Source: Pseudomonas fortuita (GTDB lineage Bacteria > Pseudomonadota > Gammaproteobacteria > Pseudomonadales > Pseudomonadaceae). From it: DNA of 64,000 nucleotides. Shown here piece after piece: positions 11,760 through 49,918 of the stretch. The notes under the pieces are model-generated. The model saw nothing but the letters and a program-made list of their open reading frames with translations. It had not been told where the DNA came from and did not search any database. Within the stretch, counting starts at the first letter, position 1; each line of letters opens with the position of its first letter. A program made the position numbers and the translations under genes. The DNA lies in NCBI RefSeq assembly GCF_026898135.2, contig NZ_CP114035.2:4195501-4259500 (forward strand), in the 5' to 3' direction.

Positions 11760-11814
11760 CACACTCACCCAGCCCGTTGCCCTTGATCATTTGAATCCGC
11801 TTTCATCAAATTGA

Positions 11815-14242: not shown

Positions 14243-14478
14243 CCACAACAGATAGTTAATTGAAACGCAGCCCTTCACGCCGAACATTCATTCAACGAGG
14301 TTTTAATTCTTGTTATCGTTTGACGCATCACCCTTGAATAGCGTTTTTTTTCGCACGCACTGCAGCGCCGAGACGCTGGCTGAAAAAGAGCGCGCCCGCA
14401 GCGTGCTTATCTGCACGCGCGGCGCACCCAAAGGAGCAAAACGCGGAACGTTGTTTGCTTAGTGCAGCTCGGCAATTA

Positions 14479-15174: not shown

Positions 15175-15190
15175 ATCTTTTACTCCGGGG

Positions 15191-16084: not shown

Positions 16085-16087
16085 ACG

Positions 16088-16888
16088 TTACTCCTCAAGC
16101 GTTGAAAAAAAGACAGACAGAGATCCTGCCTCGCCGAACTGGATATCCAGCGGCTGGTGGGTGGGAACTTCGAGTAGCCCCGCATAGGAGCCGGTGATCA
16201 CGACCTGACCCGCTTGCAGACCGATGCCACGTGCAGAGAGAAAATTGGCGAGCCAGACGATCGGCGAGACGGGGTCTTGATCCGGGTGAGTGCCGGCAAT
16301 GCTCACAGGCTCTACACCCGGATGACTCAGGGTTACATCAAGGTGAGTGGGCAAATTGTTCGAGCTCAGCGAAATGGCACGAGGCCCCAGCACTAGTCCA
16401 TGGTTGAACAACCCGTCAGCCAGCAACTGCTCGAACGGGACCTTCTGCGGATCGGTATATCGACAGTCGATTACCTCGAGTGCAAGGTGTACCTGACTGA
16501 TGGCCCGCGTAATGTCATCGGCCGTGTAGGGCGCCGCGCGGGCAGGAAGACTGGCGCCCAACACGCATGCAAGCTCGGGCTCGATTCGTACCGTGGAAGT
16601 TGCGAAGCCAAGGGGGTATCGGTCGCAACTCACGATGCTATCGGTGTAGATGGGCGCGACTATCCACTTGCCAGGTTTGGGCAATGCGCATTTCCATCCG
16701 CCCACTTTTTTCCCGGCCAGCACACCGACATGCTGCTGTATCTGGAAGCCTTGCTCCAGGCTCAGTGACGCCTCATTGCAGGGCAGAGCATCTAGTCGAT
16801 TACCCGTTTGGCGTGCTTTCGCGAGGTACGCGGCGGCTTGCATAAGGGTTGGTTCACGCGCATCAGCTGATTGACTGCACTGATCCAT
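16088..16888 (-). CDS. 2-keto-4-pentenoate hydratase-family enzyme
   Basis: 266 residues from the Met at 16888, with AGGGG nine bases upstream and positioned just after the IclR stop; a longer start inside IclR is less likely. Features are those of the MhpD/FAH-like hydratase fold: GWKCALPKPGKWIVAPIY, RIEPELACVLGASLP, HLALEVIDCRY and GQVVITGSYAGLLEVP. The family hydrates 2-hydroxypenta-2,4-dienoates or acts as a related decarboxylase. With the adjacent FAH enzyme it indicates breakdown of a 2-keto acid. Confidence 0.82.
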   Translation of the reverse strand: MDQCSQSADAREPTLMQAAAYLAKARQTGNRLDALPCNEASLSLEQGFQIQQHVGVLAGKKVGGWKCALPKPGKWIVAPIYTDSIVSCDRYPLGFATSTVRIEPELACVLGASLPARAAPYTADDITRAISQVHLALEVIDCRYTDPQKVPFEQLLADGLFNHGLVLGPRAISLSSNNLPTHLDVTLSHPGVEPVSIAGTHPDQDPVSPIVWLANFLSARGIGLQAGQVVITGSYAGLLEVPTHQPLDIQFGEAGSLSVFFSTLEE

Positions 16889-16893
16889 GAGCT

Positions 16894-17688
16894 TCACCCC
16901 TGCACGCTGGGTTGCCGAGGCCATACCGTCCCGAGCTTGTTCGCAGCATCCTCGAGCAGTGCATGCAATTCGTCATAGCGGTCTGGATGCATCCGTAACA
17001 CCGGGCCGGCAATACTCATGGTCCCGACCACAACTCCCGACGGGATCATCTTCACCGGCACCGCGATAGCCCACACACCGGCCTCAGCCTCTTCCACAAC
17101 GAGGCCATAACCCCGTGACCTGGTCGCCGCCAAATCGGAAAGCAAGCGTTCAACGGTATTGATAGCCTTAGGGCCTTTGCCTACACCCAGGTCTTTGCCC
17201 AGACCGTCGCGGATAGCAATTTCGACAGCTTGCTCGTCAGGCATGGATGCAAGCCAGGCTTTGCCGTTTGCAGTGGTGTACAGATTGATTGGCTGATCCA
17301 TGGCTGGCGAGTACATCAACCCAGGTGCAGCGCCTTGAGCCGAGGCGAGCCAGGACAAACCGCCCTCGCAGACGACAGTCAGGCGTACCAGCTCATGGGA
17401 TAAAGACGCTACGTTTTCGATAATCGGCTGCACAAGCTCCGGCAGCCCGATGCCGTTCAGGTAACGCTGCCCTAAAAGCGCCAGCTTGAGTGTCAGCCGG
17501 TATTGGGAGGTCGCCTCATCCTGCTCGGCCCAGCCTTGTTCTACCAACTGCGCAAGCACACGGTGGGCCGGCCCCTTTTCCATCCCCAGTTCACCTGCAA
17601 TATCAGACATTCGCATCCAGCGGGCCTCACGAGCCAGCAGCTCGATAGCCTCAAGGCAGCGATCAACAGCACCTTTAACGACTCTCAT
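16894..17688 (-). CDS. IclR-family regulator of the catabolic operon
   Basis: 264 residues. An N-terminal winged HTH (AVDRCLEAIELLAREARWMRMSDIAGELGMEKGPAHRVLAQLVEQGW) is joined to an IclR effector-binding domain (LSHELVRLTVVCEGGLSWLASAQG...TANGKAWLASMPDEQAVEIA). It is the first gene of the minus-strand operon and divergent from the MHS transporter across 274 bp with three GGAAC-N4-TTACAA repeats, its probable binding sites. Confidence 0.9.
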   Translation of the reverse strand: MRVVKGAVDRCLEAIELLAREARWMRMSDIAGELGMEKGPAHRVLAQLVEQGWAEQDEATSQYRLTLKLALLGQRYLNGIGLPELVQPIIENVASLSHELVRLTVVCEGGLSWLASAQGAAPGLMYSPAMDQPINLYTTANGKAWLASMPDEQAVEIAIRDGLGKDLGVGKGPKAINTVERLLSDLAATRSRGYGLVVEEAEAGVWAIAVPVKMIPSGVVVGTMSIAGPVLRMHPDRYDELHALLEDAANKLGTVWPRQPSVQG

Positions 17689-17746
17689 GGAATTCTTCTC
17701 AGCTGGTTATGAGCAGCGCCAACCAAAATGTCACGCTGTTCTATTT

Positions 17747-17761
17747 GGAACACAGTTACAA
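17747..17761 (+). promoter_or_regulatory. GGAAC-N4-TTACAA repeat, copy 1
   Basis: GGAACACAGTTACAA, 58 bp before the iclR start. TGTTC lies just upstream, making TGTTC-N5-GAACA, a palindrome usual for IclR regulators. Confidence 0.5.
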
Positions 17762-17901
17762 TAGTAAGCACCGTGTCCTCGTCAAGTCAACGCAAATGCA
17801 CGCCTGCCATCAACACCGAACCGGGCTTGAGCTGCCAGCCTATTGCAGGTCGACGACCGGGGCGTGAGACCTGCCAGCAGCCTTGACAAAGGCAATGCTC
17901 C

Positions 17902-17933
17902 GGAACAACATTACAAATGGAACGACGTTACAA
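17902..17933 (+). promoter_or_regulatory. GGAAC-N4-TTACAA tandem repeats, copies 2 and 3
   Basis: GGAACAACATTACAA (17902-17916) and GGAACGACGTTACAA (17919-17933) are in direct orientation 17 bp apart, close to the transporter start. A TTGACA (17883-17888) is upstream. They are candidate binding sites for the divergent IclR protein. Confidence 0.55.
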
Positions 17934-17939
17934 TAACAA
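17932..17939 (+). promoter_or_regulatory. Hfq/Crc-type A-rich motif before the MHS transporter
   Basis: AATAACAA fits AAnAAnAA and lies about 12 bases before the GGAGA SD. Translational repression by Hfq/Crc would match the same motif at the island's porin gene. Confidence 0.4.
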
Positions 17940-17962
17940 AATCACGGTACCGGAGACACTTC

Positions 17963-19393
17963 ATGAGCCATGGCATCCCGAGCGATCCACACTCCAAGCG
18001 TCAGTCGAGGAAGGCCGCCGCTAGCGGCTGGATCGGCTCGGCGTTGGAGTACTACGACTTTTTCATTTATGCCACTGCCGCAGCCTTGCTTTTCCCGCAG
18101 CTGTTTTTTCCAACGGACAATCCCACCGTCGGCATCATCGTTTCACTTGCCAGCTTCGGGGTTGGGTACATCGCACGACCTATAGGCGCGGTGGTGCTGG
18201 GGCACCTGGGTGACCGCCATGGGCGCAAGACAGTCCTGGTCTACTGCATGTTCTTGATGGGCTTTTCGACCATGTGCATTGGCTTGCTCCCGACCTACGA
18301 CCAGATCGGCGTGTGGGCTCCCGCGATACTGATTACCTTGCGTCTGATCCAAGGGTTCGCGGTTGCCGGCGAGGTGTCTTGCGCAAGCTCCATGACCATG
18401 GAGCATGCACCTGACGGGCGCCGTGGTTACTTCGCCAGCTTTACCCTTCAAGGCGTGCAAGCCGGGCAACTGCTAGCGGCGGCGGTGTTCCTGCCACTGG
18501 CCCAATTCATGCCCGCAGATGCTTTTGCGTCCTGGGGCTGGCGAATTCCGTTCCTGCTGAGCGCTGTGGTGCTTGTGGTCGGCTGGATCATCCGCCGTGA
18601 AGTCCATGAGGCCCCGGTCTTCGCTGAGGCGCAAGCAGGGGACAAGCCTCGCAAATTGCCAGTGGTCGAAGTGCTCACCGAAAGCTGGAAGGATGTGTTG
18701 CGCGTCGTCTGCATGGCACTCTCTGCAGTCCTTGCAATCCTCGCCTCCGTGTTCGGCGCCACCTATGCAGTCCAGCCTGCTTACGGTATTGGCTTCCCCT
18801 CAGGCTTGTTCATGTGGATTCCTGTCCTGGGCAATTTGTGCGCGGTGATACTTATCCCATTCGTCGGTAGACTCTCTGACAGAATTGGGCGTCGCCCCCC
18901 AGTGATCGTGGGCGTGCTCTGCGGCGGCCTGTTGTCGTTTGGATACCTCTATGCCATCAGCATCCACAATCTCTGGCTGTCTCTGATCCTGTCGCTTCTC
19001 ATGTGGGGCGTGGCCTACCAAGGCTTCAATGGTGTTTTCCCAAGCATGTTCCCAGAGTTGTTCCGCACCCGGGTACGCGTCACCGGTATGGCTATCGGTC
19101 AAAACATCGGCGTGGCATGCACAGCGTTTCTGCCAGCGCTGTTCGTATCGGTTGCGCCGCCTGGCACCGAAAATATCCCGCTGAAAATTGGCGCCCTGAC
19201 GTTTGGTATCTGTGCGATCTGCGCAATTGCGGCGTTCACGACCCGCGAAACGTTCCGTATTCGTCTGAGCGAACTTGGCGACCCCAACGCGGTGCCGATG
19301 TCGAAGGAGGAGTACGAACTGCTGCAGGAAAAGTCCAATCCCAGATCGAGCAGTAGCGCCCCCAATCAAGCGCTGAAAAATCAACTGCTGTGA
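17963..19393 (+). CDS. MHS-family (shikimate/alpha-ketoglutarate-type) MFS symporter
   Basis: 476 residues from the ATG at 17963 (GGAGA nine bases upstream); the longer frame crosses the operators. It begins RKAAASGWIGSALEYYDFFIYATAAALLFPQLFFP, the metabolite:H+ symporter signature, followed by the MFS loop motif GHLGDRHGRKTVL and about 12 hydrophobic segments. MHS carriers import shikimate, quinate, dicarboxylates or aromatic acids with protons. It is divergent from iclR and upstream of the shikimate-dehydrogenase-like gene, so it is the inner-membrane uptake step of this island. Confidence 0.9.
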   Translation: MSHGIPSDPHSKRQSRKAAASGWIGSALEYYDFFIYATAAALLFPQLFFPTDNPTVGIIVSLASFGVGYIARPIGAVVLGHLGDRHGRKTVLVYCMFLMGFSTMCIGLLPTYDQIGVWAPAILITLRLIQGFAVAGEVSCASSMTMEHAPDGRRGYFASFTLQGVQAGQLLAAAVFLPLAQFMPADAFASWGWRIPFLLSAVVLVVGWIIRREVHEAPVFAEAQAGDKPRKLPVVEVLTESWKDVLRVVCMALSAVLAILASVFGATYAVQPAYGIGFPSGLFMWIPVLGNLCAVILIPFVGRLSDRIGRRPPVIVGVLCGGLLSFGYLYAISIHNLWLSLILSLLMWGVAYQGFNGVFPSMFPELFRTRVRVTGMAIGQNIGVACTAFLPALFVSVAPPGTENIPLKIGALTFGICAICAIAAFTTRETFRIRLSELGDPNAVPMSKEEYELLQEKSNPRSSSSAPNQALKNQLL

Positions 19394-19421
19394 CGCACAC
19401 CTGACAACCAGACCCATCACG

Positions 19422-19460
19422 CTCAACGTGTTGCGCAATTGCCCTGCGCAGCACGTTGAG
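19422..19460. terminator. Stem-loop after the MHS transporter
   Basis: CTCAACGTG and CACGTTGAG form a perfect 9-bp stem with an inner TGCGCA pair. There is no T run, so it may be an attenuating or mRNA-stabilising hairpin rather than a true intrinsic terminator. Confidence 0.45.
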
Positions 19461-19548
19461 CCCCAAGGCGATGAACGTGTGCGCCGCCAGCAAGCATCCA
19501 ACCCGCGAGCTGGCAATTGCGTGCACTCGCCACCTACAGTAGGTTCAC

Positions 19549-20373
19549 ATGCATCCCCACATCACCGGCAAAACACGCATCTATGGACTGATAGGTGACC
19601 CGCTCAAGAGCGCCAGGTCGCCGATGCTGCTGAACAGGCTATTCGCCGAAGCACAGACTGACGCCGTGTGCATTCCATTGGAGGTCGGTACGCAGGCCCT
19701 GGCCGAGTTCGTCAAAGGCGCGCGCGCTTTGCGCAACCTAGACGGGCTTCTGGTCACCATGCCGCACAAGCAGACCATGCTTGAAGTCGTGGACATCCTT
19801 CACCCCTCCGCGCGCCAGGTAGGGGCAATAAATGTGGTTCGCTGCGATAAGGACGGTCGCTGGGAGGGCGCTGTGTTCGACGGGCTCGGCTGCGTACTGG
19901 GGATGCAGCGTCAGGGTGTTTCTGTGCTTGGGAAATCTGTCCTGCTGGTCGGAGCCGGCGGCTCGGGAAGGGCTATCGCTTTTGCCGTGGCCGCTGCTGG
20001 CGCCTACTCACTGACCATTTCTGATCTGGACCCGCACCGCGCCGCTGACCTGGCGCAAAGCGCTGGCAAAGAGGGTTCGTGCAATGTGCATGCAGGTCCA
20101 CCAGACCCGGAAGGTCATGACATCGTTATCAATGCGACGCCTCTCGGCATGAACCCCGATGATCCGATGCCAGTAGAAGCAGAGCGTTTAACCCCCGCCA
20201 TGGTGGTGGTCGACATCATCACTCGATCCGAGCCAACCGCGTTGTTACTGACGGCACAAGCGCGCGGATGCAAAACCCTTGATGGCGAGCCCATGCATTT
20301 AGGACAGGCCTTGCTGGCACTTGATTTTCTGGGCTTCAAAAACATCGAGCGTCGCTACTCAAAGGGACTTTAG
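19549..20373 (+). CDS. Shikimate/quinate dehydrogenase-like protein (AroE family)
   Basis: 274 residues. It has the AroE N-terminal substrate domain with GLIGDPLKSARSPMLLNRLF and the catalytic Lys in LLVTMPHK, then the Rossmann domain LLVGAGGSGRAIAFAVA with INATPLGMNPDD and LDGEPMHLGQALLALDF. The housekeeping aroE lies elsewhere in pseudomonads, so this is a catabolic or specialised paralogue (YdiB, RifI or quinate-dehydrogenase type). Neighbouring MHS transporter and TIM-barrel gene make a shikimate- or quinate-like substrate conceivable but unproven. Confidence 0.85.
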   Translation: MHPHITGKTRIYGLIGDPLKSARSPMLLNRLFAEAQTDAVCIPLEVGTQALAEFVKGARALRNLDGLLVTMPHKQTMLEVVDILHPSARQVGAINVVRCDKDGRWEGAVFDGLGCVLGMQRQGVSVLGKSVLLVGAGGSGRAIAFAVAAAGAYSLTISDLDPHRAADLAQSAGKEGSCNVHAGPPDPEGHDIVINATPLGMNPDDPMPVEAERLTPAMVVVDIITRSEPTALLLTAQARGCKTLDGEPMHLGQALLALDFLGFKNIERRYSKGL

Positions 20374-20509
20374 TACCCCTCCTCCCCTCGGCAGCCAGCA
20401 CGAGGGTTCTTCATTGCGTCAATCAAAACCTCCACGATGCGCATGCTCTCGGCCCGCTCACCTCCGTGATGCTGGCCGCCATGCCTTGCCAGCGTTTGGC
20501 ACCCCAATA

Positions 20510-20530
20510 GAACGTAACTTACTTCCGTTC
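20510..20530. promoter_or_regulatory. GAACG-N11-CGTTC inverted repeat
   Basis: An inverted repeat in the 288-bp gap before the Gfo/Idh/MocA gene, with GTAAC also repeated inside and after it. It may be an operator for the second IclR regulator. Confidence 0.35.
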
Positions 20531-20661
20531 GTAACAGGGTCATGCTAGCCTGCTGGCAACCTCTGCAGTGTCGCTTGCGCGCTATTCGTCGGTGGTCCGA
20601 TCCGAAACCCCGTTAGCGTCGCCAAGTTTGTCAAACATACTTATTAATAAAGGGTGGATGT

Positions 20662-21660
20662 TTGAAAGTCGTTCTCCTGGAAGTCAGCCACTGGCACACC
20701 CCGCTCTATCTTGATGCTCTGGAGCGTCTGCCTGATGTAACGGTCACGGCGGTATCCGACGCAACGGGGTCGCGGGGGCCTGCTCTCGCCCAGCGTTTCG
20801 GAGCAAAACTTTACGATCACTGGGAAACCCTGCTGGAAAACGAGGAAGCTGATTTTGCCTTCGCCTTTGGCCCGCACGATGAGCTGCATGCCATGGGCGA
20901 GGCATTGATTGAGCAAAAGGTCCCCTTCGCGATGGAAAAGCCTTGCGGGCTAACCCAACACGAAGTGCTGGATCTTTACCAACGCACACAGGCCAGCGGC
21001 CTGTTCGTGGCGGTGCCGTTGATATGGAGGCACAGCGAGTTATTGAACCGCCTGAAACAGCAAGCCAGGCAGAGTGATGCCAAGTGGAGAACCCTGGCGT
21101 TTCGATTCAACGCTGGCCCGCCTGGACGCTACCTGACCAACGGTTGCTCCTGGATGCTTGAGCCGAAACGCTCAGGTGGCGGATGCACGATCAATCTCGC
21201 CCCTCATTTCGTCGATCTGGTTCAGGAAATTTCCGGCGAGGCGATTCGAAGCGTGTCAGCCGTGATGTATCGCGACCCGCTACTGACAGCCGTAGAGATC
21301 GGCTCGTTGATGACCCTGGTGACCGAGAGTGGGTGCATCTGCACTATCGAAACGGGGTACAATTATCCCGCCAATACGCCCGAGCAACGGGAGTATTCAT
21401 TTTCAATGTCAACGGATCAGTTCTACGCACGCTCCACCGCAGATGGCATGCGGCTGGTGGACGCGTCCGGGCAGGCAAGTGACCTGCACATGAGCTTGAA
21501 CTCTGACGTGTATTACGACAACTTCGTAATCGACATACTCGCGCCTGACCGTGATAGTGCTTATGCAGGTGCCGGGCTCGCCACCATGCACCGCGTCATG
21601 CGTATCATCGAGGCGGCCTATGAGTCAGATCGCCTGGGTGGTGTTCCCATCAAGGTCTAA
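20662..21660 (+). CDS. Gfo/Idh/MocA-family oxidoreductase
   Basis: 332 residues from a TTG with AGGGTGG upstream. The N-terminal nucleotide-binding region reads MKVVLLEVSHWHTPLYLDALERLPDVTVTAVSDATGSRG; it lacks the usual GxGxxG, having a variant found in some family members, and is followed by the family's VPFAMEKPCGLTQHE (catalytic EKP) and a C-terminal substrate domain (GGGCTINLAPHFVDLVQEISGE). It is likely an NAD(P)-dependent dehydrogenase of a sugar- or inositol-like compound. The next gene, iclR, starts 30 bp downstream, probably in one unit. Confidence 0.8.
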   Translation: MKVVLLEVSHWHTPLYLDALERLPDVTVTAVSDATGSRGPALAQRFGAKLYDHWETLLENEEADFAFAFGPHDELHAMGEALIEQKVPFAMEKPCGLTQHEVLDLYQRTQASGLFVAVPLIWRHSELLNRLKQQARQSDAKWRTLAFRFNAGPPGRYLTNGCSWMLEPKRSGGGCTINLAPHFVDLVQEISGEAIRSVSAVMYRDPLLTAVEIGSLMTLVTESGCICTIETGYNYPANTPEQREYSFSMSTDQFYARSTADGMRLVDASGQASDLHMSLNSDVYYDNFVIDILAPDRDSAYAGAGLATMHRVMRIIEAAYESDRLGGVPIKV

Positions 21661-21690
21661 AACGCTGGCACGAAATTAAGGATTAGAAAA

Positions 21691-22497
21691 TTGTCACATA
21701 TAGGCCGCTACTTCAATACTTTGGAACTGCTCCTTTCCCATCCAGGCGGCCTCGCCCTGTCTGACATCAGTGAACAGACTCAAGTGGCTATGGCCACAGC
21801 TCACCGTATATTGAGCGCCCTGCGGGAAAGAGGCTACGTTTACCAAGACGAGCAGGACCACTACTGCCTGACGCTTAAAATTCCCAGCATGGGCGTGAAC
21901 TACATCAGTGAAACCGGCTTTGCCAGAATAATGCAACCTTTGCTCGACGAACTCGCCAGCGAAACCGGCGAGCATGTTCGCCTGGCGGAAGTTGCTGAGG
22001 ATCATCTGAGTTGGGTGCTGCAGGCCACGAATAACACCAGGGGCCTTCAATACCGCCGCGCCCTGGACGAAAAAATCATCCCCCATACCACCGCGGCTGG
22101 TAAAGCATGGCTCTCCACCATGCCTGATGAGCGCGCCATGCGCATTCTCGCCGCCTGGGATATCGAGAAAAGCCGAGAGTACGCAGGGCCCAACGCTCGC
22201 GTTTCGATACGCGATATTTTCGATGACATCGCCCTGATCCGCAAAGAGGGGCATGCTGTAGTCAGAGAAGAAGGTGAAGTGGGTGTGTGCGTTGTGGCAG
22301 TGCCTGTATTCGATAAAACACGCCCGGCCAACTCAGCCCCGGTGGCAACCCTCAGCATCGCCGGCCCTATCGCCCGCATGCGAGAGGAAACCCTGAATGC
22401 TCATATCGAACATCTGAAACAGTCCGCCATCAAGGTTGGCGAGTGCTGGTCGCTGTGGACTTCGGTCAACGGTGAAAGCCCGCTACCTGCACGCTGA
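21691..22497 (+). CDS. Second IclR-family regulator
   Basis: 268 residues from a TTG with AAGGA upstream. The HTH reads YFNTLELLLSHPGGLALSDISEQTQVAMATAHRILSALRERGYV, followed by an IclR effector domain (ETGEHVRLAEVAEDHLSWVLQATNN, TTAAGKAWLSTMPDERAMRIL). It resembles the first IclR protein of this island (both contain an AAGKAWL/ANGKAWL patch and SIAGP), suggesting related effectors. It follows the Gfo/Idh/MocA gene and may control that gene and the TIM-barrel/SDR pair. Confidence 0.88.
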   Translation: MSHIGRYFNTLELLLSHPGGLALSDISEQTQVAMATAHRILSALRERGYVYQDEQDHYCLTLKIPSMGVNYISETGFARIMQPLLDELASETGEHVRLAEVAEDHLSWVLQATNNTRGLQYRRALDEKIIPHTTAAGKAWLSTMPDERAMRILAAWDIEKSREYAGPNARVSIRDIFDDIALIRKEGHAVVREEGEVGVCVVAVPVFDKTRPANSAPVATLSIAGPIARMREETLNAHIEHLKQSAIKVGECWSLWTSVNGESPLPAR

Positions 22498-22566
22498 CGC
22501 TCTGACTTGGACCTGGGCCCATTGCGGGCCTCAGGGCTACTGTGATGACGAGCGATTGAAACGCAA

Positions 22567-23376
22567 TTACGGAATGTCCCAACCCTTCTCCCGCAGATCC
22601 TGCACACCTTTGTTCAGCTCGTACAAGGCGTTTTCTTCGCGGATGATTTCGAGCACGCAGTTTTCAATACCGCAGGTCGCCTGAACGGCCTCACCCAGTC
22701 CGACGAAATCCACGACTCCGGTGCCCACTGGATCATGGCCCCAAACATCCATGCCGGTGTCGGACACATGCACAAAGTCGATAGCGCTGCGATAGGTCAG
22801 CAGACTGGCTACCGGATCCTCACCTATGTAAGCAGCGTTGGCGATGTCATATACGACCCTGACGACATCATCATTGATAGTGGCAACAACCTCTGCCAGC
22901 TCCCCCATCGTAGGCGTGAAGCAATACGGGGTATTTTCCAGCAGCAAGCGAACACCCGCCTGTTTCGCAAGCGGCGTTAAAACCGCCAGGCTCTCGTACA
23001 TCCAGTCATAAGTCTTTTCAAGCGGTGGAGAAATCATCGGGCGCCGGGTACCCGGGGATATCACCACCTCTTGGGTATCCCAAGCGACTGCCAGGTCAAT
23101 CACTGCCTTGATGTGATCGATGCTCTTCTGACGCATATTGGCGGCGGGACTGGCCAGGTTGACGTCATAGCCGCCGGCATTGAGCGACCTGATCTTTGCG
23201 TCGTACTGACGCAGACGCACGCTTGCAGCAGAACGCTCTGCAATAGACATTTCCACCGGCCAGCAATGGGGCGAGCTTACGGGCACCTCGAACACGCGGT
23301 GCCCATGCTCTGACAACTGCGCAATTGCATCGATTGCCGTGGATGACCACAGATAAGAAAACGTGCTGATGATCAT
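22567..23376 (-). CDS. Sugar phosphate isomerase/epimerase-like TIM-barrel enzyme
   Basis: 269 residues; the Met at 23376 (MIISTFSYLWSS) has AAGGA nine bases upstream. It has the xylose-isomerase-like AP-endonuclease-2 fold with metal ligands in RLLLENTP, VVYDIANAAYIGEDP (Asp), DFVHVSDTGMDVWGHDPVGTGVVDF (His, Asp) and a terminal LEIIREE. This superfamily includes epimerases, inosose dehydratase and 3-dehydroshikimate dehydratases; the reaction here is not determined. It converges with iclR and is divergent from the SDR gene. Confidence 0.8.
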   Translation of the reverse strand: MIISTFSYLWSSTAIDAIAQLSEHGHRVFEVPVSSPHCWPVEMSIAERSAASVRLRQYDAKIRSLNAGGYDVNLASPAANMRQKSIDHIKAVIDLAVAWDTQEVVISPGTRRPMISPPLEKTYDWMYESLAVLTPLAKQAGVRLLLENTPYCFTPTMGELAEVVATINDDVVRVVYDIANAAYIGEDPVASLLTYRSAIDFVHVSDTGMDVWGHDPVGTGVVDFVGLGEAVQATCGIENCVLEIIREENALYELNKGVQDLREKGWDIP

Positions 23377-23644
23377 ATCGAAACATCCTTTCAGTTGAGG
23401 ACTCACCGAAGTGAAACGGGCCATTCATATTATGAATTTTGTAGGGTGACCACTATCGCCTGCAGGAAGACGCGATGATGGATGCACCTGGAGAGCGACA
23501 GCCACTGCGCTGTCAAGGACATCCTGATGACGAAAAAAACGATAACGGAACTGGATTCCATTGTCAATTTGATTGCAAAGTACCTTCCAGTTTTGTAGTT
23601 TGAGCCTTCCACCTAAAACAAAATCTACGTGTGAGGGCAATTGA

Positions 23645-24436
23645 ATGAGAGCTTTGGTGAGTGGCGGTAGTAGCGGCATCGGTGCTTCTACATGCCTGAG
23701 GATCGCGGAGGCTGCACTTGCCCGGGGCTCGCAGCCGAAAATTGCCGTGTGCGGGCAGACGTCAAACGCGACGCAGGACGACGTCGTTCGAACGATAGAG
23801 TCGATGGGTGGCATCGCGATCTCGCTGTCGGGTGATCTCGGCGACCCTGCAGTACCTGACCAACTTGTAGCAGCTGCAGTAGCCGAATTTGGGGGGCTTG
23901 ACGCGCTTGTTGCGAATGCTGGCATCGCCAGCCCGGGCGCGATCTGTAGCTTGTCCTTCAAGGATTGGGACGACATGTTCGCCGTGAATCTTCGCGGCGC
24001 CTGGCTGCTAGCCAAAGCGGCCTACCCGCACCTTCGCGAGAGCCGAGGCTCAGCGTGCTTCACCTCGTCGATGTCTGGCCAGCTTCCGCATGCCGGCTCT
24101 GGCGCCTACAGCCCCACCAAGGCAGCATTAACCATGTTGGCGCAAACGCTGGCGCTGGAGTGGGCACCTGATGGCATCCGAGTGAATGTCGTGTCGCCAG
24201 GTATGACGCATACACCCATGTCTGAAAAAATGTACGCAGACCCACAGATCAAGAGAGCACGGGAAGGGATTATTCCGCTGGGGAGAATTGGTGAGCCAAT
24301 GGATATCGCGAACGTGATCGAGTTTCTCGTTAGCCCGCTAGCCGGCTTTGTTACCGGGCAGGATATTTGTGTCGATGGCGGCTTTTCCAAGTCGATACTT
24401 AGCCATATCCCGGGGCGACCGAGCTCGAAATCCTAG
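23645..24436 (+). CDS. Short-chain dehydrogenase/reductase
   Basis: 263 residues. Classical SDR motifs: SGGSSGIGA cofactor loop at the N-terminus, LDALVANAGI (NAG), active-site Ser in FTSSMSG, YSPTK (Tyr-xxx-Lys) and VNVVSPGMTHTP, ending in a Gly-rich DGGFSKS. It probably oxidises or reduces a hydroxyl of the island's substrate with NAD(P). It is divergent from the TIM-barrel gene over about 270 bp containing GGAACTGGATTCC (23547-23559), a possible regulator site. It is the last island gene before tRNA-Gly. Confidence 0.88.
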   Translation: MRALVSGGSSGIGASTCLRIAEAALARGSQPKIAVCGQTSNATQDDVVRTIESMGGIAISLSGDLGDPAVPDQLVAAAVAEFGGLDALVANAGIASPGAICSLSFKDWDDMFAVNLRGAWLLAKAAYPHLRESRGSACFTSSMSGQLPHAGSGAYSPTKAALTMLAQTLALEWAPDGIRVNVVSPGMTHTPMSEKMYADPQIKRAREGIIPLGRIGEPMDIANVIEFLVSPLAGFVTGQDICVDGGFSKSILSHIPGRPSSKS

Positions 24437-24660
24437 CCACGGCAGCAGATTGAGCTCCATGTTGAATGGATTCAGGCCAGACTCACAGCCTGGCGGACTC
24501 AAAGGGCATTTTACGAATGCGGGGGCGCGGCTTTTAGCGAATGTGAGGATTCATGAGCAGCTCTCCCCGCAGAAACGAATTGGGCGATTTCAATTCTGGA
24601 CTAGTTGCTGCCTTTGAAATGCCGGGATAACGCTGATTTTCGGTGAAGACTGCAGAAACG

Positions 24661-24725: not shown

Positions 24726-24801
<76 letters not shown>

Positions 24802-41132: not shown

Positions 41133-42842
41133 TCAGCGCACCCGCTCCCGGCTCTGCACTGCCAGGTCCAGCGCACGCTGCATGTCCAGCCGCGCTGAAC
41201 GCCCCAGGTCTGGGTGGTTCAGGCGCCCTCCACGTTCCGAAGGCAGGATCGGCGCCGTCAGGTCTTCGGCATCCATCGCCTCGAAATCCTGCTCGGTGCC
41301 CAGGGTCAGGGCACTGCGCCGCAACAGCATGCGCACCTGTTCCGGGGTCAGGGCCGGGTTGATCGACAGCATCGTTGCAACGGTGGCAGTCACCAAGGGT
41401 GTTGCGTACGACGTGCCGCAATGCGCAGCAGCGGCAGCCGCTGGGCGAATGCAGGCAGCGGCACTGACATCCACGCGCATGTCGACGTTGGAGCTGTGGC
41501 GCTTGCGCACATACTCGGGGGCTTCGACCGCAGTCGCCTTGTCGCTGCGCTGGTGCCCGCCCACCACCAGCAGTTGTTCGGAGATGAACGACGACGGCAG
41601 GCGGTATTCGTCGGTACCTGACCACGACGCACCGTTACCCGCCGAATTCACCACCATCACATCTGGATGCTCTTTGCGCAGCCAGAGAAAGAACTCCTCA
41701 AGCAATTCCTCGTAACCACTCATCGCCAGCCCGGAACGCACCAGCGAATCGACCTCATCACCGTTGACATCGCGTGCGCCTACCCGGTGGATGCCCCAGC
41801 TCCAGTTCAGCACCCGCACGCCATCCTCGACCAGGTTCACCGATGCAGCGATGTTGGCGGTGATACCTGCATCGGAGTTGCGCTCTACAATCACCTCGAA
41901 GCCAGGGCTGTGCTTGCCCAGCCCCGGCAAAAATCCCTCACCCTGTGCGGCGAGAATGCCTGCGACATGGCTGCCGTGGCTGGTCGCGCGATCCCCGTCG
42001 CGCGCGTACAGGCAGGTCTGGCCCTGTTCGCAGCCGCCTCGGTATTGGCTGAACGCGGGGGCATCAAAATCCACTTCACGCTCGACTACCCCAACCCGCA
42101 CGGGGTGCACCGGCAAGTGCGAAGCGCCAATCCGTCGCTGGTAGAAATACAGCGCATCCATGAACCGGTTGGCGGCCCATTCGTCCGCCTGGTCGATGGC
42201 CCGAGCGTCGCGGCCGCTGCCTTCTTCACCGCGCTCCGGTGCAGACTCCTCGACAACCACGGCATCCACGCTGAGTTCACTGCCCATGCGCAGGATCATC
42301 GCGTCACGCTGCACCAGGTCAGCCACCGGCAAGCGCAACTGGTAGACATTCAGCGGCGGTATCGCACCGACAACCTGGGCGCCGTATTTGTCGGCAATAC
42401 GCCGGGCCTCTCCAAGGCCTTCGTGTTTCTCCTCAATCAACAGGCTGACCAGGTCGACATAGGTGGTCAGGCCATCCATGTTCTTCGCCACCTCATCAGG
42501 CCTTGCGGCGACCACATGACTGCGCTGGCGGGTCAGCCATACAGGGTTGCTGGTACTGCTGCCAGATTCCAGCCAAAGCGGCGCGCTGCGCTGGGCTTGC
42601 TTCGCCAGCTTCAGCGTGAGCCGGTCACCTTGACGCTCGATATCCGCCGTTGGCAGCCGCACACCGCCCAGCCATACCTTTGGCACATCTGCCCCGAGCC
42701 CCTCGGCACGCAGGCACCATTGCTGCTGGTTATCGTCGAACAAGTCGCCGCACCGCTGCAGCTGCTTGATGCGCAGCGTGTCCGCTGCAGCCTGTGCACC
42801 AAGGCTGCAAAGCCATAACAGCAGGATCAGACTACCCTTCAT
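41133..42842 (-). CDS. Secreted S8 peptidase homologue, paralogue of the 8271-10040 gene
   Basis: 569 residues with a signal peptide (MKGSLILLLWLCSLGAQAA). The N-terminal domain shares TLRIKQL, VWL, DLVSLLIEE and VVGAIPPLNVYQLRL with the paralogue. The S8 domain has TSHGSHVAGI (His about 289), VNSAGNGAS (oxyanion Asn) and CGTSYATPLVTATVA (Ser about 478). The Asp-site strand reads VRVGVVEREVDF with Glu about 254. It is divergent from the secretin-like gene; this copy lies in core DNA, so it is probably the ancestral one. Confidence 0.87.
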   Translation of the reverse strand: MKGSLILLLWLCSLGAQAAADTLRIKQLQRCGDLFDDNQQQWCLRAEGLGADVPKVWLGGVRLPTADIERQGDRLTLKLAKQAQRSAPLWLESGSSTSNPVWLTRQRSHVVAARPDEVAKNMDGLTTYVDLVSLLIEEKHEGLGEARRIADKYGAQVVGAIPPLNVYQLRLPVADLVQRDAMILRMGSELSVDAVVVEESAPERGEEGSGRDARAIDQADEWAANRFMDALYFYQRRIGASHLPVHPVRVGVVEREVDFDAPAFSQYRGGCEQGQTCLYARDGDRATSHGSHVAGILAAQGEGFLPGLGKHSPGFEVIVERNSDAGITANIAASVNLVEDGVRVLNWSWGIHRVGARDVNGDEVDSLVRSGLAMSGYEELLEEFFLWLRKEHPDVMVVNSAGNGASWSGTDEYRLPSSFISEQLLVVGGHQRSDKATAVEAPEYVRKRHSSNVDMRVDVSAAACIRPAAAAAAHCGTSYATPLVTATVATMLSINPALTPEQVRMLLRRSALTLGTEQDFEAMDAEDLTAPILPSERGGRLNHPDLGRSARLDMQRALDLAVQSRERVR

Positions 42843-44212: not shown

Positions 44213-45538
44213 ATGGCACTGACACGCGAACAGCAAATTGCAGCCCTCGAGAAAGATTGGGCCGAGAACCCGCGCTGGAAAGGCGTGACCCGTACCTACA
44301 CCGCCGCTGATGTCGTTCGCCTGCGTGGCTCCCTGCAGCCAGAGCCCACCCTGGCCCGCCAGGGTGCAGAAAAACTGTGGAAGCTGGTCACCCAAGGTGC
44401 CCACCCGTCCTTCCGCCCAGACAAAGATTTCGTCAACTGCATGGGCGCCCTGACCGGTGGCCAGGCAGTGCAACAGGTCAAGGCCGGCATCCAGGCCATT
44501 TACCTGTCCGGCTGGCAGGTTGCCGCCGACAACAACTCGGCCGAGTCGATGTACCCTGACCAGTCGCTGTACCCGGTTGACTCGGTACCGACCGTGGTCA
44601 AGCGCATCAACAACTCGTTCCGCCGCGCCGACCAGATCCAGTGGAAAGCCGGCAAGAACCCGGGCGACGAAGGCTACATCGACTACTTCGCCCCAATCGT
44701 GGCTGACGCCGAAGCCGGTTTCGGTGGCGTGTTGAACGCCTACGAGCTGATGAAGAACATGATCGAAGCAGGCGCCGCCGGCGTGCACTTCGAAGACCAG
44801 CTGGCCTCGGTCAAAAAATGCGGCCACATGGGCGGCAAGGTACTGGTACCGACGCAGGAAGCCGTACAGAAGCTGGTGGCCGCGCGCCTGGCAGCTGACG
44901 TTTCCGGCGTGCCGACTATCATTCTGGCCCGTACCGACGCCAACGCCGCTGACCTGCTGACCAGCGACTGCGACCCGTACGATCAGCCGTTCGTGATTGG
45001 CGAGCGTACCCGTGAGGGCTTCTACAAGGTCCGCGCCGGCCTCGACCAGGCCATCTCTCGCGGCCTGGCTTATGCGCCATATGCCGACCTGATCTGGTGC
45101 GAAACCGCCAAGCCAGACCTGGACGAAGCCCGTCGCTTCGCCGAGGCCATCAAGAAGGAGTACCCGGACCAGATCCTGTCGTACAACTGCTCGCCGTCCT
45201 TCAACTGGAAGAAGAACCTGGACGACGCCACCATCGCCAAGTTCCAGCGCGAACTGTCGGCCATGGGCTACAAGCACCAGTTCATCACCCTGGCGGGCAT
45301 CCACAACATGTGGCACGGCATGTTCAACCTGGCGCACGACTACGCCCGCAACGACATGACCGCCTACGTGAAGCTGCAAGAGCAGGAATTCGCTGACGCC
45401 AGCAAAGGCTACACCTTCGTGGCGCACCAGCAAGAAGTGGGCACTGGCTACTTCGACGACATGACCACTGTGATTCAGGGTGGCGCATCGTCGGTGACTG
45501 CCCTGACCGGCTCGACCGAGGAAGAGCAGTTCCACTGA
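44213..45538 (+). CDS. aceA: Isocitrate lyase
   Basis: 441 residues. The glyoxylate-shunt enzyme cleaving isocitrate to succinate and glyoxylate. The catalytic loop [14 protein letters not shown] holds the active-site Cys; [19 protein letters not shown] and [19 protein letters not shown] are family-typical, and the C-terminus [10 protein letters not shown] is of the short Enterobacteria/Pseudomonas AceA type. The sequence from about 45090 to 45575 is repeated, diverged, at 48213-48694, so the 3' third may have come with the inserted element. A rho-independent terminator follows. Confidence 0.97.
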
Positions 45539-45561
45539 TAGCGGCTTGCCGCGGAAGAAAG

Positions 45562-45593
45562 GCCCAGGGCTGCGAAAGCCCTGGGCTTCTTTC
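45562..45593 (+). terminator. aceA rho-independent terminator
   Basis: GCCCAGGGCT and AGCCCTGGGC form a 10-bp stem around GCGAA, followed by TTCTTTC. Confidence 0.85.
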
Positions 45594-45635
45594 ATGCATG
45601 ATTCGACTACGCGCTGCCAAAACTCCGGGCGAACT

Positions 45636-46376
45636 CTAAGCGCGGAATCCACCATCGATTGGTACCGCCACACCAGTTACATAAGAAGCCGCCTCCGAGC
45701 TAAGCCAGTACACAAGCTCAGCAACCTCATGGGCTTCACAGACTCGCCGCATAGGCTGCGAGGCACACACCGAATCAAATTTGCTCCCCAGTACATGCTA
45801 CGCCAATGGCGTTGATACAAACCCCGGACACACGGCATTGACCCGGACGCCATAAGGGGCATATTCCTTTGCAACGGCTCCGGTAATTCCAACTAGCGCG
45901 TGCTTGCTGGCAGTGTATACAGAGCCACCCGTGACACTGGCATTCAGACCCGCTAGCGAGGCGACGTTGACAATGGTGCCATGTCCCGCCTCACGCATTG
46001 CAGGCAACACCGCCTTGATGCATTGCCATGGCGCACGTACATTCGTGGACATGACATCATCGAAATCAGCCTCGGGATAGTCCTCGGTCATCGTGAATGA
46101 TCGACCGTCAATACCGATGCTGTTGACGAGACAATTTATGGGTGGGTGATCGAGAGCCAGTTGCTTAAAAAGGTCGGTCAACTCGGTAGGGCTACGCAAA
46201 TCGACCGAGTACGAATGCGCACACGCCATCTCCCTGTTGATACCCTCACACACACGAAGGTTCCGAACATGATCACGTCCGCACACAATGACTGTGTATT
46301 GCTCTCTGGCAAATTTCCATGCACACGCCTCTCCGATACCGGAATTGCCACCAGTAATAACAACAACCTTGCTCAT
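45636..46376 (-). pseudogene. SDR interrupted by a single in-frame amber codon
   Basis: A 247-codon frame, continuous apart from one TAG at 45798-45800 (codon 193). Before it: TGGNSGIGEA loop, LVNSIGI, VNVASLAG with Ser, YTASK and VNAVCPGFVSTPLA. After it, in the same frame: HVLGSKFDSVCASQPMRRVCEAHEVAELVYWLSSEAASYVTGVAVPIDGGFRA and TAG at 45636-45638, exactly the normal SDR C-terminus. The stop removes the substrate loop and the dimerisation end, so the product is probably inactive unless the codon is read through. It is the distal gene of the inserted minus-strand operon. Confidence 0.85.
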
Positions 46377-46394
46377 GCCTTCAAGTCCCTTCTG

Positions 46395-47579
46395 TCAGTA
46401 ATCAAGCCTTCCACGTCGTAGGAAGAGACAGGTCAGGCCAAAAATCACACCCGCGCAACCAAAAACCGTCCAGGTAACACTGAAGCCAAGGCCAGCCAGC
46501 ATCGGCACAGCCAAGATTACGCATAGCACTCGTGCCGCAGCCTGAATTACAGGTATCAAGGAAAACAAAAACCCTTGTCGCGACACCGGCGCTCGCTGGG
46601 CAATCAAGGTCGCCATGTAGGTGATACCGATTATCTCTCCCAAGGTCCAGATCACCACTAACAATAGTATTGCGGGCCAAGTATCGACCAAGGCATAGGC
46701 GCCGAAACCAATGCCGTAGCAGATCGCCGCCAGCGCCATGTTAGCCATGGCAGAACAACGCCGGCTCAAGGCAATCAGCGGTCGAGTTAGGACAATAACC
46801 AGTAACCCATTAACAATTCCTGCCACTCCAAACAGATGAGCCGCATCACTCACCCCCAATGCTTCTAACCAGAGAGGGAACTGGTATTCGCGCTGACCAT
46901 CAAGCAGGGACAATACGAAAAACATCACACCCGCCAAGATCACCACCGCGGGTATCGGCACATCCTTCGCCTTAAGCGGCGTATCCTTAGCATCGAGATG
47001 ACTTCCGGTTAGCGGCAGAGCCAAGGCAGCGCTCGTCACCAGGCAAACCAGACTAATCGCTGCGGTAAACCACAAGAGATACTGGCTTTGCCAACTAAGC
47101 AGAACACCCCCTACGACGAACAGCAGGACACCACCTGCATTACTGGCTAGATGAAGATAGGCAAAGGCCCCCACCTGATCGTCTGACGGTGCAGCCCGGG
47201 CGGTCATCACGCTGAAAAGCGGTGTGATGGCGCCCGCACTGAACATAAAAAGCAAAATCATGCCGATTGCGATGGGTAAGATCGGCAGCAGACTGCCCAA
47301 CAGCGCGAGCAGCGCCGTCGACGAACAGCCCAACAGAAGAAGTCGACTGCCCACACGACCTGGCAGTTGTCCACCCAGCAGGTTTCCGGCCAAATAGCTG
47401 ATGATCATCAGCGACACCGTAGTCGCCAGTTCAGCATCTGCCAAAGCAAAGTGCCGATTCATAAATAACGCCGCAAACGACCCGACCCCGTTGGCCAGGA
47501 CAAACAGCAACTTGAGCAATGCCACCTTATGCATTAGCGGGCTCATTCGCTTAATGCCGTGGCTTACGGCGCTACCCAT
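46395..47579 (-). CDS. MFS transporter in the aceA-linked insertion
   Basis: 394 residues from the Met at 47579 (alternative Met at 47546); neither has a strong SD, but the start overlaps the preceding fragment's stop, which suggests translational coupling. About 12 hydrophobic segments begin LLKLLFVLANGVGSFAALFMNRHF; it has an MFS half-repeat layout (YLAGNLLGGQLPGRVGSRLLLLG, VLTRPLIALSRR). GC is lower than in neighbouring core genes. It could export a product of the neighbouring PLP enzyme and SDR; the substrate is unknown. Confidence 0.8.
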   Translation of the reverse strand: MGSAVSHGIKRMSPLMHKVALLKLLFVLANGVGSFAALFMNRHFALADAELATTVSLMIISYLAGNLLGGQLPGRVGSRLLLLGCSSTALLALLGSLLPILPIAIGMILLFMFSAGAITPLFSVMTARAAPSDDQVGAFAYLHLASNAGGVLLFVVGGVLLSWQSQYLLWFTAAISLVCLVTSAALALPLTGSHLDAKDTPLKAKDVPIPAVVILAGVMFFVLSLLDGQREYQFPLWLEALGVSDAAHLFGVAGIVNGLLVIVLTRPLIALSRRCSAMANMALAAICYGIGFGAYALVDTWPAILLLVVIWTLGEIIGITYMATLIAQRAPVSRQGFLFSLIPVIQAAARVLCVILAVPMLAGLGFSVTWTVFGCAGVIFGLTCLFLRRGRLDY

Positions 47580-47844
47580 GAGGACCGAGGCACAACGTCG
47601 TGCCGTCCTTGAACCTTGAAATCCAGCGACGCTCGCTACCCACTCGTTTATCAGTCTCAAGCCCCAGATAGGAGCATGAGCACATATTAATGAAAATATG
47701 CCCTTCTTGGTCGCGCAGCCGGCTGGATGGACAGTGGACCACACTGCGATCTGCCAGGCCAGACGCGTGGGCGAGTTCCCAAGACGGGTTACCCAACTCA
47801 ATAGCGCGCTCGGTGTTGATGAACAGGTTTCTTTGCTCGGACAT
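47572..47844 (-). pseudogene. N-terminal fragment of an alpha-oxoamine-synthase-like PLP enzyme
   Basis: 90 residues with an excellent SD (GGAG five bases before ATG). MSEQRNLFINTERAIELGNPSWELAHASGLADRS is followed by HIFINMCSCSYLGLETDKRV, which matches the N-terminal cofactor-proximal segment of 8-amino-7-oxononanoate synthase, 2-amino-3-ketobutyrate CoA ligase, serine palmitoyltransferase or CqsA enzymes (about 400 residues). The sequence then continues 24 residues and stops at an overlap with the MFS start. The missing 300 residues, including the Schiff-base Lys, indicate an internal deletion or a remnant. Confidence 0.6.
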
Positions 47845-48212
47845 AGCATCTCCATAAGCATGCACGAATACTTTACTGACAAAGAAAAAGGAAACTTCCT
47901 ACAACAACCAATACAAACTATTACTTGCTACTCCTCAACAAACCTTACCTCGAGTACAATACCAGCATCATTCAACCACGAAGATCAACCCCAAAACAAA
48001 ACCATATCATTTAGACGCGCAAAAACTCATGCCCCAGGTGATTTCCAATGAAAATATCAAACACCACCTACCCTCGAAATCACCAAGAAAAGGGCAAACT
48101 CCAACCACAATCACCCAGAAACTATTTGTTGCACTTAGCGTTGGCTACCCACCCAAAGCTTCTCCCCAATCTTGAAATTAGTTGATTATTTTCACCCAAC
48201 TTTTCCCCCACA
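47845..48212. other. Low-GC segment upstream of the inserted operon
   Basis: About 370 bp, the most AT-rich stretch of the window, with many CAA and ACC repeats. It should hold the promoter of the minus-strand operon. A plus-strand 45-codon frame from 48048 (MKISNTTYPRNHQEKGKLQP) has only a weak SD. The junction with the aceA repeat is at 48212/48213. Confidence 0.5.
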
Positions 48213-48661
48213 TGATCTGGTGCGAAACCGCCAAGCCGGACCTGGACGAAGCCCGTCGCTTCGCCGAAGCGATCAAGAAGGAGTACCCGGACCAGATCCT
48301 GTCGTACAACTGCTCGCCTTCCTTCAACTGGAAGAAGAACCTGGACGACGCCACCATCGCCAAGTTCCAGCGCGAGCTGTCGGCCATGGGCTACAAGCAC
48401 CAGTTCATCACGCTGGCGGGTATCCACAACATGTGGCACGGCATGTTCAACTTGGCGCACGATTACGCCCGCAACGACATGACCGCCTACGTGAAGCTGC
48501 AAGAGCAGGAATTCGCTGACGCCAGCAAAGGCTACACCTTCGTGGCGCACCAGCAGGAAGTGGGTACTGGTTACTTCGATGACATGACCACCGTGATCCA
48601 GGGTGGCGCATCGTCGGTGACTGCCCTGACCGGCTCGACCGAGGAAGAGCAGTTCCACTGA
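48213..48661 (+). pseudogene. aceA': Second, 5'-truncated copy of aceA (3' third)
   Basis: From TGATCTGGTGCGAAACCGCC the sequence encodes [20 protein letters not shown] through [10 protein letters not shown], identical in protein to the C-terminal 149 residues of AceA at 45090-45538, with scattered synonymous changes (for example CCAGAC/CCGGAC). Similarity continues past the stop into GAAGAAAGGCCCAGGGCT. It lacks the catalytic Cys region and cannot be active. It forms a direct repeat with the 3' end of the intact gene, bracketing the insertion. Confidence 0.95.
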
Positions 48662-48680
48662 TAGCGGCTTGCCGCTGAAG

Positions 48681-48713
48681 AAAGGCCCAGGGCTCTCGCG
48701 AGCCTTGGGCCTT
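48681..48713 (+). terminator. Terminator of the aceA' copy
   Basis: AAAGGCCCAGGGCTC and GAGCCTTGGGCCTTT form a long stem around TCGC, then TCTCTTT; it differs from the aceA terminator in loop and second arm. Confidence 0.85.
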
Positions 48714-48752
48714 TCTCTTTGCCGATACAGACCGACCAGGAACATACGGAAC

Positions 48753-48871
48753 CTGTAGGAGCGGCCTTGTGTCGCGAAAGGGCTGCGCAGCAGCCCTAGC
48801 AATTTGTGCATCTGCGCAAAACATTGGGGCCGCTGCGCAGCCCTTTCGCGACACAAGGCCGCTCCTACAGG
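48753..48871. repeat. REP palindromic pair
   Basis: CCTGTAGGAGCGGCCTTGTG and its mirror ending CCGCTCCTACAGG face each other; both arms extend through TCGCGAAAGGGCTGCGCAGC. About 118 bp overall. Confidence 0.88.
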
Positions 48872-48896: not shown

Positions 48897-49160
48897 TCAG
48901 TGCTTCATGCCCAGCTCTGCGTCATCCATCAGCGCCTTGGCCATTGCACTCAGGTAGTGAGCAGCCCAGATCATCATGGGTTTCTCCTCCATCAGGCCAG
49001 TGATGGTCAGTTCACGGACATAGCCCATCAATTCCGAAGATTGCTCGCGGGCGTCCCGACAGGGGATGCCGGGTTCGATGCGGAACAGTGGATGGGTGCT
49101 GTTTTCGCCTTGATAGAAAGTGGTCTTGCCGACGGTGAATTGGGTGTCTTCTGTTGTCAT
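48897..49160 (-). CDS. DUF3077 family protein
   Basis: 87 residues; the Met at 49160 has AGGGG nine bases upstream. The protein has the DUF3077 pattern: FTVGKTTFYQGENSTHPLFRIEPGIPCRDAREQSSELMGYVRELT and a Trp-Ala-Ala helix WAAHYLSAMAKALMDDAELG at the C-terminus. The family is common in Pseudomonas, often in several copies, and has no assigned function. It is flanked by REP elements. Confidence 0.75.
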   Translation of the reverse strand: MTTEDTQFTVGKTTFYQGENSTHPLFRIEPGIPCRDAREQSSELMGYVRELTITGLMEEKPMMIWAAHYLSAMAKALMDDAELGMKH

Positions 49161-49201
49161 TGTTGAATCCCCTGGAATATTTCGATTGCCTGGGCGGGCC
49201 T

Positions 49202-49226: not shown

Positions 49227-49696
49227 GGTAATGTGCAAGTTTGAGACTTGTGGGGATCCGGGTCAGCCGGATCAGCGGTGCTTCGAGGGAATGGGGGTTT
49301 TGGGGTGGATCGGGGATGGCTTTCAGCATTACGATTTACCGTTATCGGTGCCGCCTCCGGCCTGCTGTCAAACAGTTGGGTGGCAGCTGTACGTGGGTTG
49401 ACAGACCGGCGGAAATCGTAAAGTTCCGGCGCACGCAAGCGTGCCCGCACGTACAGCCGCCATAAAGGCGAACCGCATCCGACTTACCGTCACAGCCTGT
49501 CAAAGCTGAATCGTTGATGAGCAACGACATGCCGAGACTAGAGCGCTGCCAAGGCAGCGGCAACGGAAAATGCGCGGCGGGAGTATGTTTGGGAAATGGC
49601 CTACAGGGAAGGGGTTAAATCCGACATGTCAGGTGTTCTGCGCGCGATTGCGTCAGGGCGGCGATGTGACCGGTTTGAATTTTGTGGTGATGCGTA

Positions 49697-49918
49697 GATC
49701 GAGCGCCGCCCGCGCGGCGCATCGCGAGCGAAGCTCGCTCCTACATTTGTTTCGGGCCAGTTATTCCTGAGGCGGAGGCGCGCGGCCCTTGGCGCCCACC
49801 TCGGAATCGCGTCGAACAAACAAGGCGGTCGCGCGCGCTGACACAGGCGATACTGGCCCGAAACAAATGTAGGAGCGAGCTTCGCTCGCGATGCGCCGCG
49901 CGGGCGGCGCTCGATCTC
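49697..49918. repeat. Very long REP inverted repeat
   Basis: Arms of about 67 bp (GATCGAGCGCCGCCCGCGCG... to ...TTTGTTTCGGGCCAGT and its mirror from ACTGGCCCGAAACAAATG) surround an 85-bp centre. Each arm contains the GAGCGAAGCTCGCTC hairpin of the GTAGGAGCGAGC REP type. The arms are nearly perfect copies. Confidence 0.88.

Follow-up and report, generated by a model that had tools for sequence, protein, structure and literature searches.

A 64,000-nucleotide stretch of the Pseudomonas fortuita chromosome (assembly GCF_026898135.2, contig NZ_CP114035.2, positions 4,195,501 to 4,259,500 of the forward strand; hereafter the window) carries a low-GC insert directly behind aceA, the gene for isocitrate lyase, and this insert is bracketed by direct repeats of part of that gene's 3' end. 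Judged from its sequence, the insert is the deletion remnant of a gene cluster that is complete at the same place in Pseudomonas farsensis. The account favoured here, with a probability of about 0.6, is that a cluster for a compound and its export was recombined through the aceA 3' end without an integrase, by a single crossover of a recircularised fragment and later exchange of flanks, and then decayed by about 7 kb.

The direct repeat of the aceA 3' third and the DNA between its copies

The features of the aceA region are as follows; MFS stands for major facilitator superfamily, SDR for short-chain dehydrogenase/reductase and PLP for pyridoxal phosphate.

44213..45538, plus strand: aceA, intact isocitrate lyase gene of 441 aa (PRK15063, 800.8 bits, cut-off 562)
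45090..45571, plus strand: left repeat copy, aceA 3' third with the first half of the terminator (from the alignment to the right copy)
45553..45594, plus strand: left aceA terminator hairpin (from folding; its far side, TTTCATGCA, by eye resembles the island side in P. farsensis)
45636..46376, minus strand: SDR oxidoreductase gene with an in-frame stop at 45798-45800 (part before the stop 91% to the unbroken P. farsensis gene)
46395..47579, minus strand: intact MFS exporter gene, 394 aa (88% to P. farsensis, 71% to P. reidholzensis)
47572..47841, minus strand: remnant, about 68 N-terminal residues of a BioF/Kbl-type PLP enzyme (PRK07505 family) that continue in frame into the 24 C-terminal residues of an AbiEi-like protein
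47644..47646, no strand: deletion junction, its two sides sharing about 3 bp (about 7.0 kb of the P. farsensis island missing)
47842..48206, no strand: low-GC right end of the island, no gene recognised (homology to P. farsensis extends almost to the repeat)
48207..48694, plus strand: right (displaced) copy, aceA 3' end with the first half of the terminator (open frame 48212-48661 from ATG ATC TGG)
48679..48716, plus strand: right aceA terminator (resembles the empty-site relatives G265 and G289)
48897..49163, minus strand: DUF3077 gene (neighbour of aceA in empty-site relatives)

The repeat, which extends over 45084-45571 and 48207-48694, lies within a few bases of where the original prediction, made from the letters of the window, had placed it. 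Its copies are 97% identical over 482 bp (45090-45571 vs 48213-48694; E 1.8e-231 in a search of the own genome). Counted from 45090 and 48213, with the boundary codon (CTG at 45089, ATG at 48212) excluded, they show 15 coding differences in 15 codons. All of these are synonymous, as had been proposed, so that the nonsynonymous fraction is 0/15 changed codons vs 73% expected for random changes; both copies were coding-constrained until recently. One more difference lies past the stop codon, ahead of the hairpin loop, and the copies diverge from the loop onward. Each of them enters a terminator, with folding energies of -30.1 and -34.5 kcal/mol (z -4.25 and -5.49). The genome contains one whole aceA and one fragment, and a third match of 44 bp is background. 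As the genome is a single contig and the copies differ, the repeat is unlikely to be an assembly duplicate.

Between the copies the GC content is 0.46-0.58 in 500-bp windows vs 0.61-0.63 in aceA, which bears out the lower-GC DNA that had been noted there, and to the left of the insert aceA stays whole, as had also been stated. The three minus-strand genes described between the copies are all present, but two are broken, the SDR gene by its in-frame stop and the third as a fusion remnant. The ratio of nonsynonymous to synonymous rates (dN/dS) between the window and P. farsensis is 0.14 for the SDR pieces and 0.18 for the MFS gene. Decay of the window island is recent, and for this reason its open exporter frame is weak evidence of use.

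The complete island and its relatives across Pseudomonas

Among named genomes the exporter has two close relatives, in P. farsensis SWRI107 (88%) and in P. reidholzensis CCOS 865 (71%). The P. farsensis gene likewise adjoins aceA and belongs to a complete island with genes of the SDR, MFS, AbiEi-like, HisC-type aminotransferase, class II aldolase, D-2-hydroxyacid dehydrogenase, ornithine-cyclodeaminase (OCD), MaoC, CitE and BioF/Kbl types, followed by a second aceA 3' piece spanning about aceA 868 to 1325 and then by the usual downstream DNA. Relative to this island the window is without about 7.0 kb, and the start of the BioF/Kbl-type gene is joined to the last residues of the AbiEi-like one. 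In both genomes the right aceA piece starts at about gene position 868-878, and the DNA to the left of it is homologous. At aceA position 877 both right pieces have A vs C (59) or T (2) in 61/61 whole aceA genes. Because of this shared base and the homologous DNA beside it, the insert in the window most likely descends from the same insertion as the P. farsensis island. The right copy is clean in the window and a pseudogene in P. farsensis.

The usual surroundings of aceA were examined in 82 fetched loci. The gene is followed by nuoA on the fetched stretch in 79, within 0.5-2.75 kb in 72 of these, and some of the intervals also contain a DUF3077 gene and a membrane-protein gene. At an E value of 1e-40 the exporter family was found in 10 of 398 Pseudomonas genomes, and in eight of them (the window's own, P. 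farsensis, G201, G208, G230, G243, G301 and G349) it lies within the aceA-nuoA interval. G208 was viewed from the nuoA side only, since its contig ends before aceA and a comparison with its own aceA is impossible. The remaining two differ in position: in G190 the cluster lies away from aceA (near 3.22 Mb, with aceA near 3.85 Mb), and G037 has a partial cluster in which the middle biosynthetic genes gave no match and no aceA occurs in the 40 kb fetched around it. At these loci (L176/L179 of G190, L177 of G037) the cluster is accompanied by an AbiEi-like sequence and a second leucyl-tRNA synthetase (LeuRS) gene. A search with the insert DNA against 194 genomes taken as relatives, a set in which the presence of P. 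farsensis was not shown, returned one match, the own genome.

In G208, G230, G301 and G349 the HisC-, aldolase-, dehydrogenase-, OCD-, MaoC-, CitE- and BioF/Kbl-type genes occur in the order and orientation of P. farsensis. These full clusters form another branch than that of P. farsensis, and two of the four include a second LeuRS gene. Such a gene adjoins aceA in G349 and G243 and stands at the contig end on that side in G208. Altogether it was detected in five of 11 genomes examined (G243, G349, G208, G037 and G190) and not in the window's genome, which has the housekeeping gene only, nor in P. farsensis, G230, G301 and G201. With the island LeuRS of G243 as query, the other island copies are 79-92% identical and the housekeeping enzymes 51-53%. 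Since the matches contain stops in G208 (1), G190 (1) and G037 (3), not every second LeuRS need be active.

Partial islands are found at aceA as well. G243 retains LeuRS and MFS together with a HisC scrap and an SDR-like 3' gene end, G201 the MFS gene and the same SDR-like scrap, P. reidholzensis the MFS gene alone and G276 only part of the SDR gene. The exporter frame is open in four of the five remnants at aceA, G276 being the exception. Biosynthesis would have been lost repeatedly, with the exporter kept in the window, G201 and P. reidholzensis, and the exporter together with the second LeuRS in G243.

Displaced aceA ends were sought with the 482-bp repeat in the 398 genomes; 330 gave a match and 23 more than one. 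As two candidates were scored per genome, short pieces may be missed in this search. When 21 of the 23 (the window's own genome and P. farsensis excluded) were re-run with more candidates, a genuine second piece near aceA was found in two, G243 (193 bp, 97.4%, from aceA 1194) and G128 (about 270 bp, 82%, from aceA 1118). Short background matches alone were present in 18, and a contig break probably divides the aceA of G232. In G301 the terminator alone recurs, 88 bp at 91%, directly past the last cluster gene (start at stop+9). The displaced copies therefore start at different points in different inserts (about 868, 1118, 1194 and stop+9), and the starts are equal only between the window and P. 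farsensis. The partial duplication of the target gene brackets the insert in the window but not in every species with the cluster at this place. Its length varies between inserts, and the differing cargo would make these independent events.

The DNA between aceA and the displaced piece in G128 (L099) encodes a DHA2-like MFS exporter and a piece of an oxidoreductase dependent on flavin adenine dinucleotide (FAD), a different cargo at the same place. G215 was set aside, as another large rearrangement lies behind its aceA. In this locus (L107) the DNA behind aceA encodes an OPT-type transporter, and it also contains transposase-like frames and a permease-like gene, all named by eye; the 10.8 kb fetched include no nuoA.

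Origin of the insert

The proposed course of events begins with a fragment that reached from inside a donor aceA through the cluster and would have entered the cell. Its free ends would have been joined, and RecA would have recombined the resulting circle with the native aceA 3' end, leaving aceA whole on the left and a displaced aceA piece on the right. Once flanked by aceA sequence, the island could spread further or loop out, needing no more than ordinary recombination between copies of aceA. The window island probably came by such a later exchange, since its right junction is that of P. farsensis and its flanks are those of its own clade; as the junction is common to both, exchange through pre-existing flanks is likelier for the latest move than a new joining. 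A deletion of about 7 kb would then have spared the exporter and, of the biosynthetic genes, a single truncated end. We infer the order of these events, the recircularisation, the role of RecA and the placing of the deletion after arrival.

The joining of foreign DNA through aceA had been part of the original prediction and is supported by the analysis. On the further proposal, that the right copy is probably the native one, the results lean to its side. The right terminator and the DUF3077 neighbour match the empty-site order of relatives (in 6 of 82 loci, including G265 and G289, no more than about 0.5 kb separates DUF3077 from the aceA stop), and the three nearest relatives fetched, G217, G265 and G289, have no island at aceA. 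The right copy is closest to G217, with 98.0% identity vs 96.4% for the left copy. The aceA trees took in 61 of the 82 loci, only matches spanning the gene being retained; in the tree of the 3' end (64 sequences) both window copies fall in a clade with G217, G265 and G289, and the 5' part of the window aceA groups there too. A foreign left copy and a native right copy are suggested by 11 of the 15 differing sites, as a lean that is not significant. The simplest account would be that two alleles of related strains met recently, and gene conversion could blur the picture.

Several results weigh against the proposed origin. At the 15 differing sites the right copy has the majority state of the three nearest relatives at 11 and the left copy at 4 (p = 0.12), and the distances to G217 are 9 and 16 differences of 449 for right and left (p = 0.22). 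The tree joins the left and right copies of the window as sisters, though weakly (91/75), rather than showing one as native and one as clearly foreign. Those of P. farsensis are sisters with strong support (100/95), which makes a local origin of its right copy possible. No right-hand aceA piece was seen in G349, G201, P. reidholzensis, G230 and G276, apart from 16-22-bp matches in G201, G230 and G276, and the island therefore also occurs at this place without the repeat. The differing starts of the displaced copies, for their part, could result from later erosion of one original copy.

The sister grouping, seen in both genomes, and the decayed, old right copy of P. farsensis are what would remain if the aceA 3' end had been duplicated locally, in tandem, around separately arrived DNA, and the original prediction had taken the closest kinship of the two copies, together with the lack of this structure in empty-site strains, as the mark of such an event. 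The window copies are indeed sisters, yet their 15 differences are all synonymous and split into 11 on the gene side, which is constrained, and 4 on the side of the fragment, which would have been free to change. This makes a plain local duplication unlikely for the window. The probability of 0/4 nonsynonymous changes in a free fragment is 0.005, although gene conversion could blur this too. Conversion is central to another explanation, also judged improbable, by which the insertion is ancient and inherited and its right copy was kept aceA-like. The junction shared with P. farsensis and the remnants in G276 and P. reidholzensis would fit such an age, but the nearest fetched relatives of the window lack the island, and conversion cannot have been general because the right copy of P. 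farsensis is a pseudogene.

Foreign DNA behind a rebuilt 3' gene end is also known where lambdoid phages integrate at icd and where SGI1-type islands sit at trmE; both have an integrase and a fixed core. An island of a tyrosine integrase at the aceA 3' end, icd-like and with its integrase since lost, would likewise leave foreign DNA behind an intact gene end with the displaced end on the far side, and it would account for the junction common to the window and P. farsensis. In contrast to the icd phages and SGI1-type islands, neither an integrase nor a fixed core was found at aceA. No integrase was recognised among the island open reading frames (ORFs), which were assigned through Pfam or from matches to known cluster genes, or in the examined inserts, and of the 18 integrase-domain matches in the genome the nearest lies about 205 kb outside the window. 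The displaced starts vary as given above, and the displaced copy reaches up to about 460 bp. This explanation is likewise improbable. Of the two routes offered by the original prediction, single crossover or integrase, the first gained support and the second did not, and the idea of aceA as a fixed integration target like icd is not supported, as the starts differ between islands.

Phage and plasmid origins were considered in their own right and rejected. The exporter had no match to phage, which together with the integrase results speaks against the former. The insert DNA had no match to plasmids; the plasmid relatives of the P. farsensis BioF/Kbl-type protein and of the window exporter are all under 60% identity, and the exporter relative on a Burkholderia glumae plasmid sits among other genes.

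Recombination without an integrase, as favoured here, has parallels in known systems. Homology-facilitated illegitimate recombination has reportedly been described in work on P. stutzeri. In Escherichia coli, according to passages of PMC3240628, when linear DNA was homologous at one end only, polymerase chain reaction showed the gene of that end to be partly duplicated in 56 of 60 clones; the duplications were 109-950 bp long in 14 sequenced clones and were ascribed by the authors to a recircularised, trimmed molecule and a single crossover. The aceA case resembles what is reported there in its one-end homology, its partial target duplication of variable length and the absence of a site-specific enzyme. 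It differs from those laboratory constructs in being natural and in involving a metabolic cluster in several species at one place. PMC3784515 adds that partly repeated DNA taken up in transformation can pair with both of two sister chromosomes, with duplications as the result. For the modules of the type VI secretion system (T6SS) of Vibrio, one-sided homology has been proposed, in part of PMC5361080, to displace gene ends. As in the sequential effector-immunity displacement outlined in that part, the aceA module is anchored on a conserved gene, the older end is pushed downstream and candidate immunity parts would outlive the weapon. Unlike those modules it has no T6SS, its anchor is a housekeeping enzyme, and the part kept is an exporter, in one genome also LeuRS.

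Other features of the window and significance of the cluster

Elsewhere in the window, about 18 kb at 6200-24500 is unmatched in the homologous stretches of G217, G265 and G289 and ends near a tRNA-Gly gene (24726-24801); Pfam matches of nine ORFs there include an OprD porin, FAA hydrolase, IclR regulator, MFS, shikimate-DH N-domain and others, with no integrase among those nine. Two subtilase-family (Peptidase_S8) proteins of similar length are encoded at 8271-10040 and 41133-42842 (minus strand), the latter in DNA that is covered in G217 and hardly in G265 and G289. To the right of the displaced aceA end lie an 88% hairpin with 59-nt arms (48752-48871) and an inverted repeat whose 66-nt arms match perfectly across a 90-nt spacer (49696-49917). 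The ends of both are of the CTCCTACA type, as in the repetitive extragenic palindromic (REP) elements of Pseudomonas.

Neither aceA as an island site in Pseudomonas nor this cluster was found described in the open-licence literature of PubMed Central, and no product of the cluster was found in open-licence literature. The presence of RipB and RipC relatives, the BioF/Kbl-type enzyme, the aminotransferase, the exporter and the diverged LeuRS suggests that the cluster may make a compound that resembles an amino acid and inhibits LeuRS, with resistance in the producer itself. In NCBIfam the best matches of the MaoC-type and CitE-type proteins of G349 are RipB and RipC, encoded by ripB and ripC of itaconate degradation, but the scores lie under the curated cut-offs (222.4 of 340 and 185.7 of 375 bits). 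Itaconate inhibits isocitrate lyase, as stated in a passage of PMC7397319. Some members of the cluster resemble antimetabolite clusters such as phaseolotoxin/ArgK in that a diverged second copy of a housekeeping enzyme stands beside exporter and biosynthetic genes. The likeness is incomplete, as the product at aceA is putative and the genomes listed above as lacking a second LeuRS include that of the window.

It is possible, though tentative, that the aceA-nuoA interval serves as a recurrent, integrase-free parking place for an undescribed Pseudomonas cluster of a leucine-like antimetabolite directed at LeuRS, with its BioF/Kbl-type enzyme and RipB/RipC relatives beside glyoxylate-forming aceA, and that remnants consisting of the exporter, with or without the second LeuRS, act as immunity genes against producers. 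The locus is a natural case, in several species and at one address, of an accessory cluster that apparently relies on ordinary recombination in a housekeeping gene end for its movement, and the partial gene duplication found in nature matches the experimental outcome in E. coli. The cluster with a second LeuRS is a candidate source of a LeuRS-directed compound, and the exporter-only remnants are candidate immunity genes.

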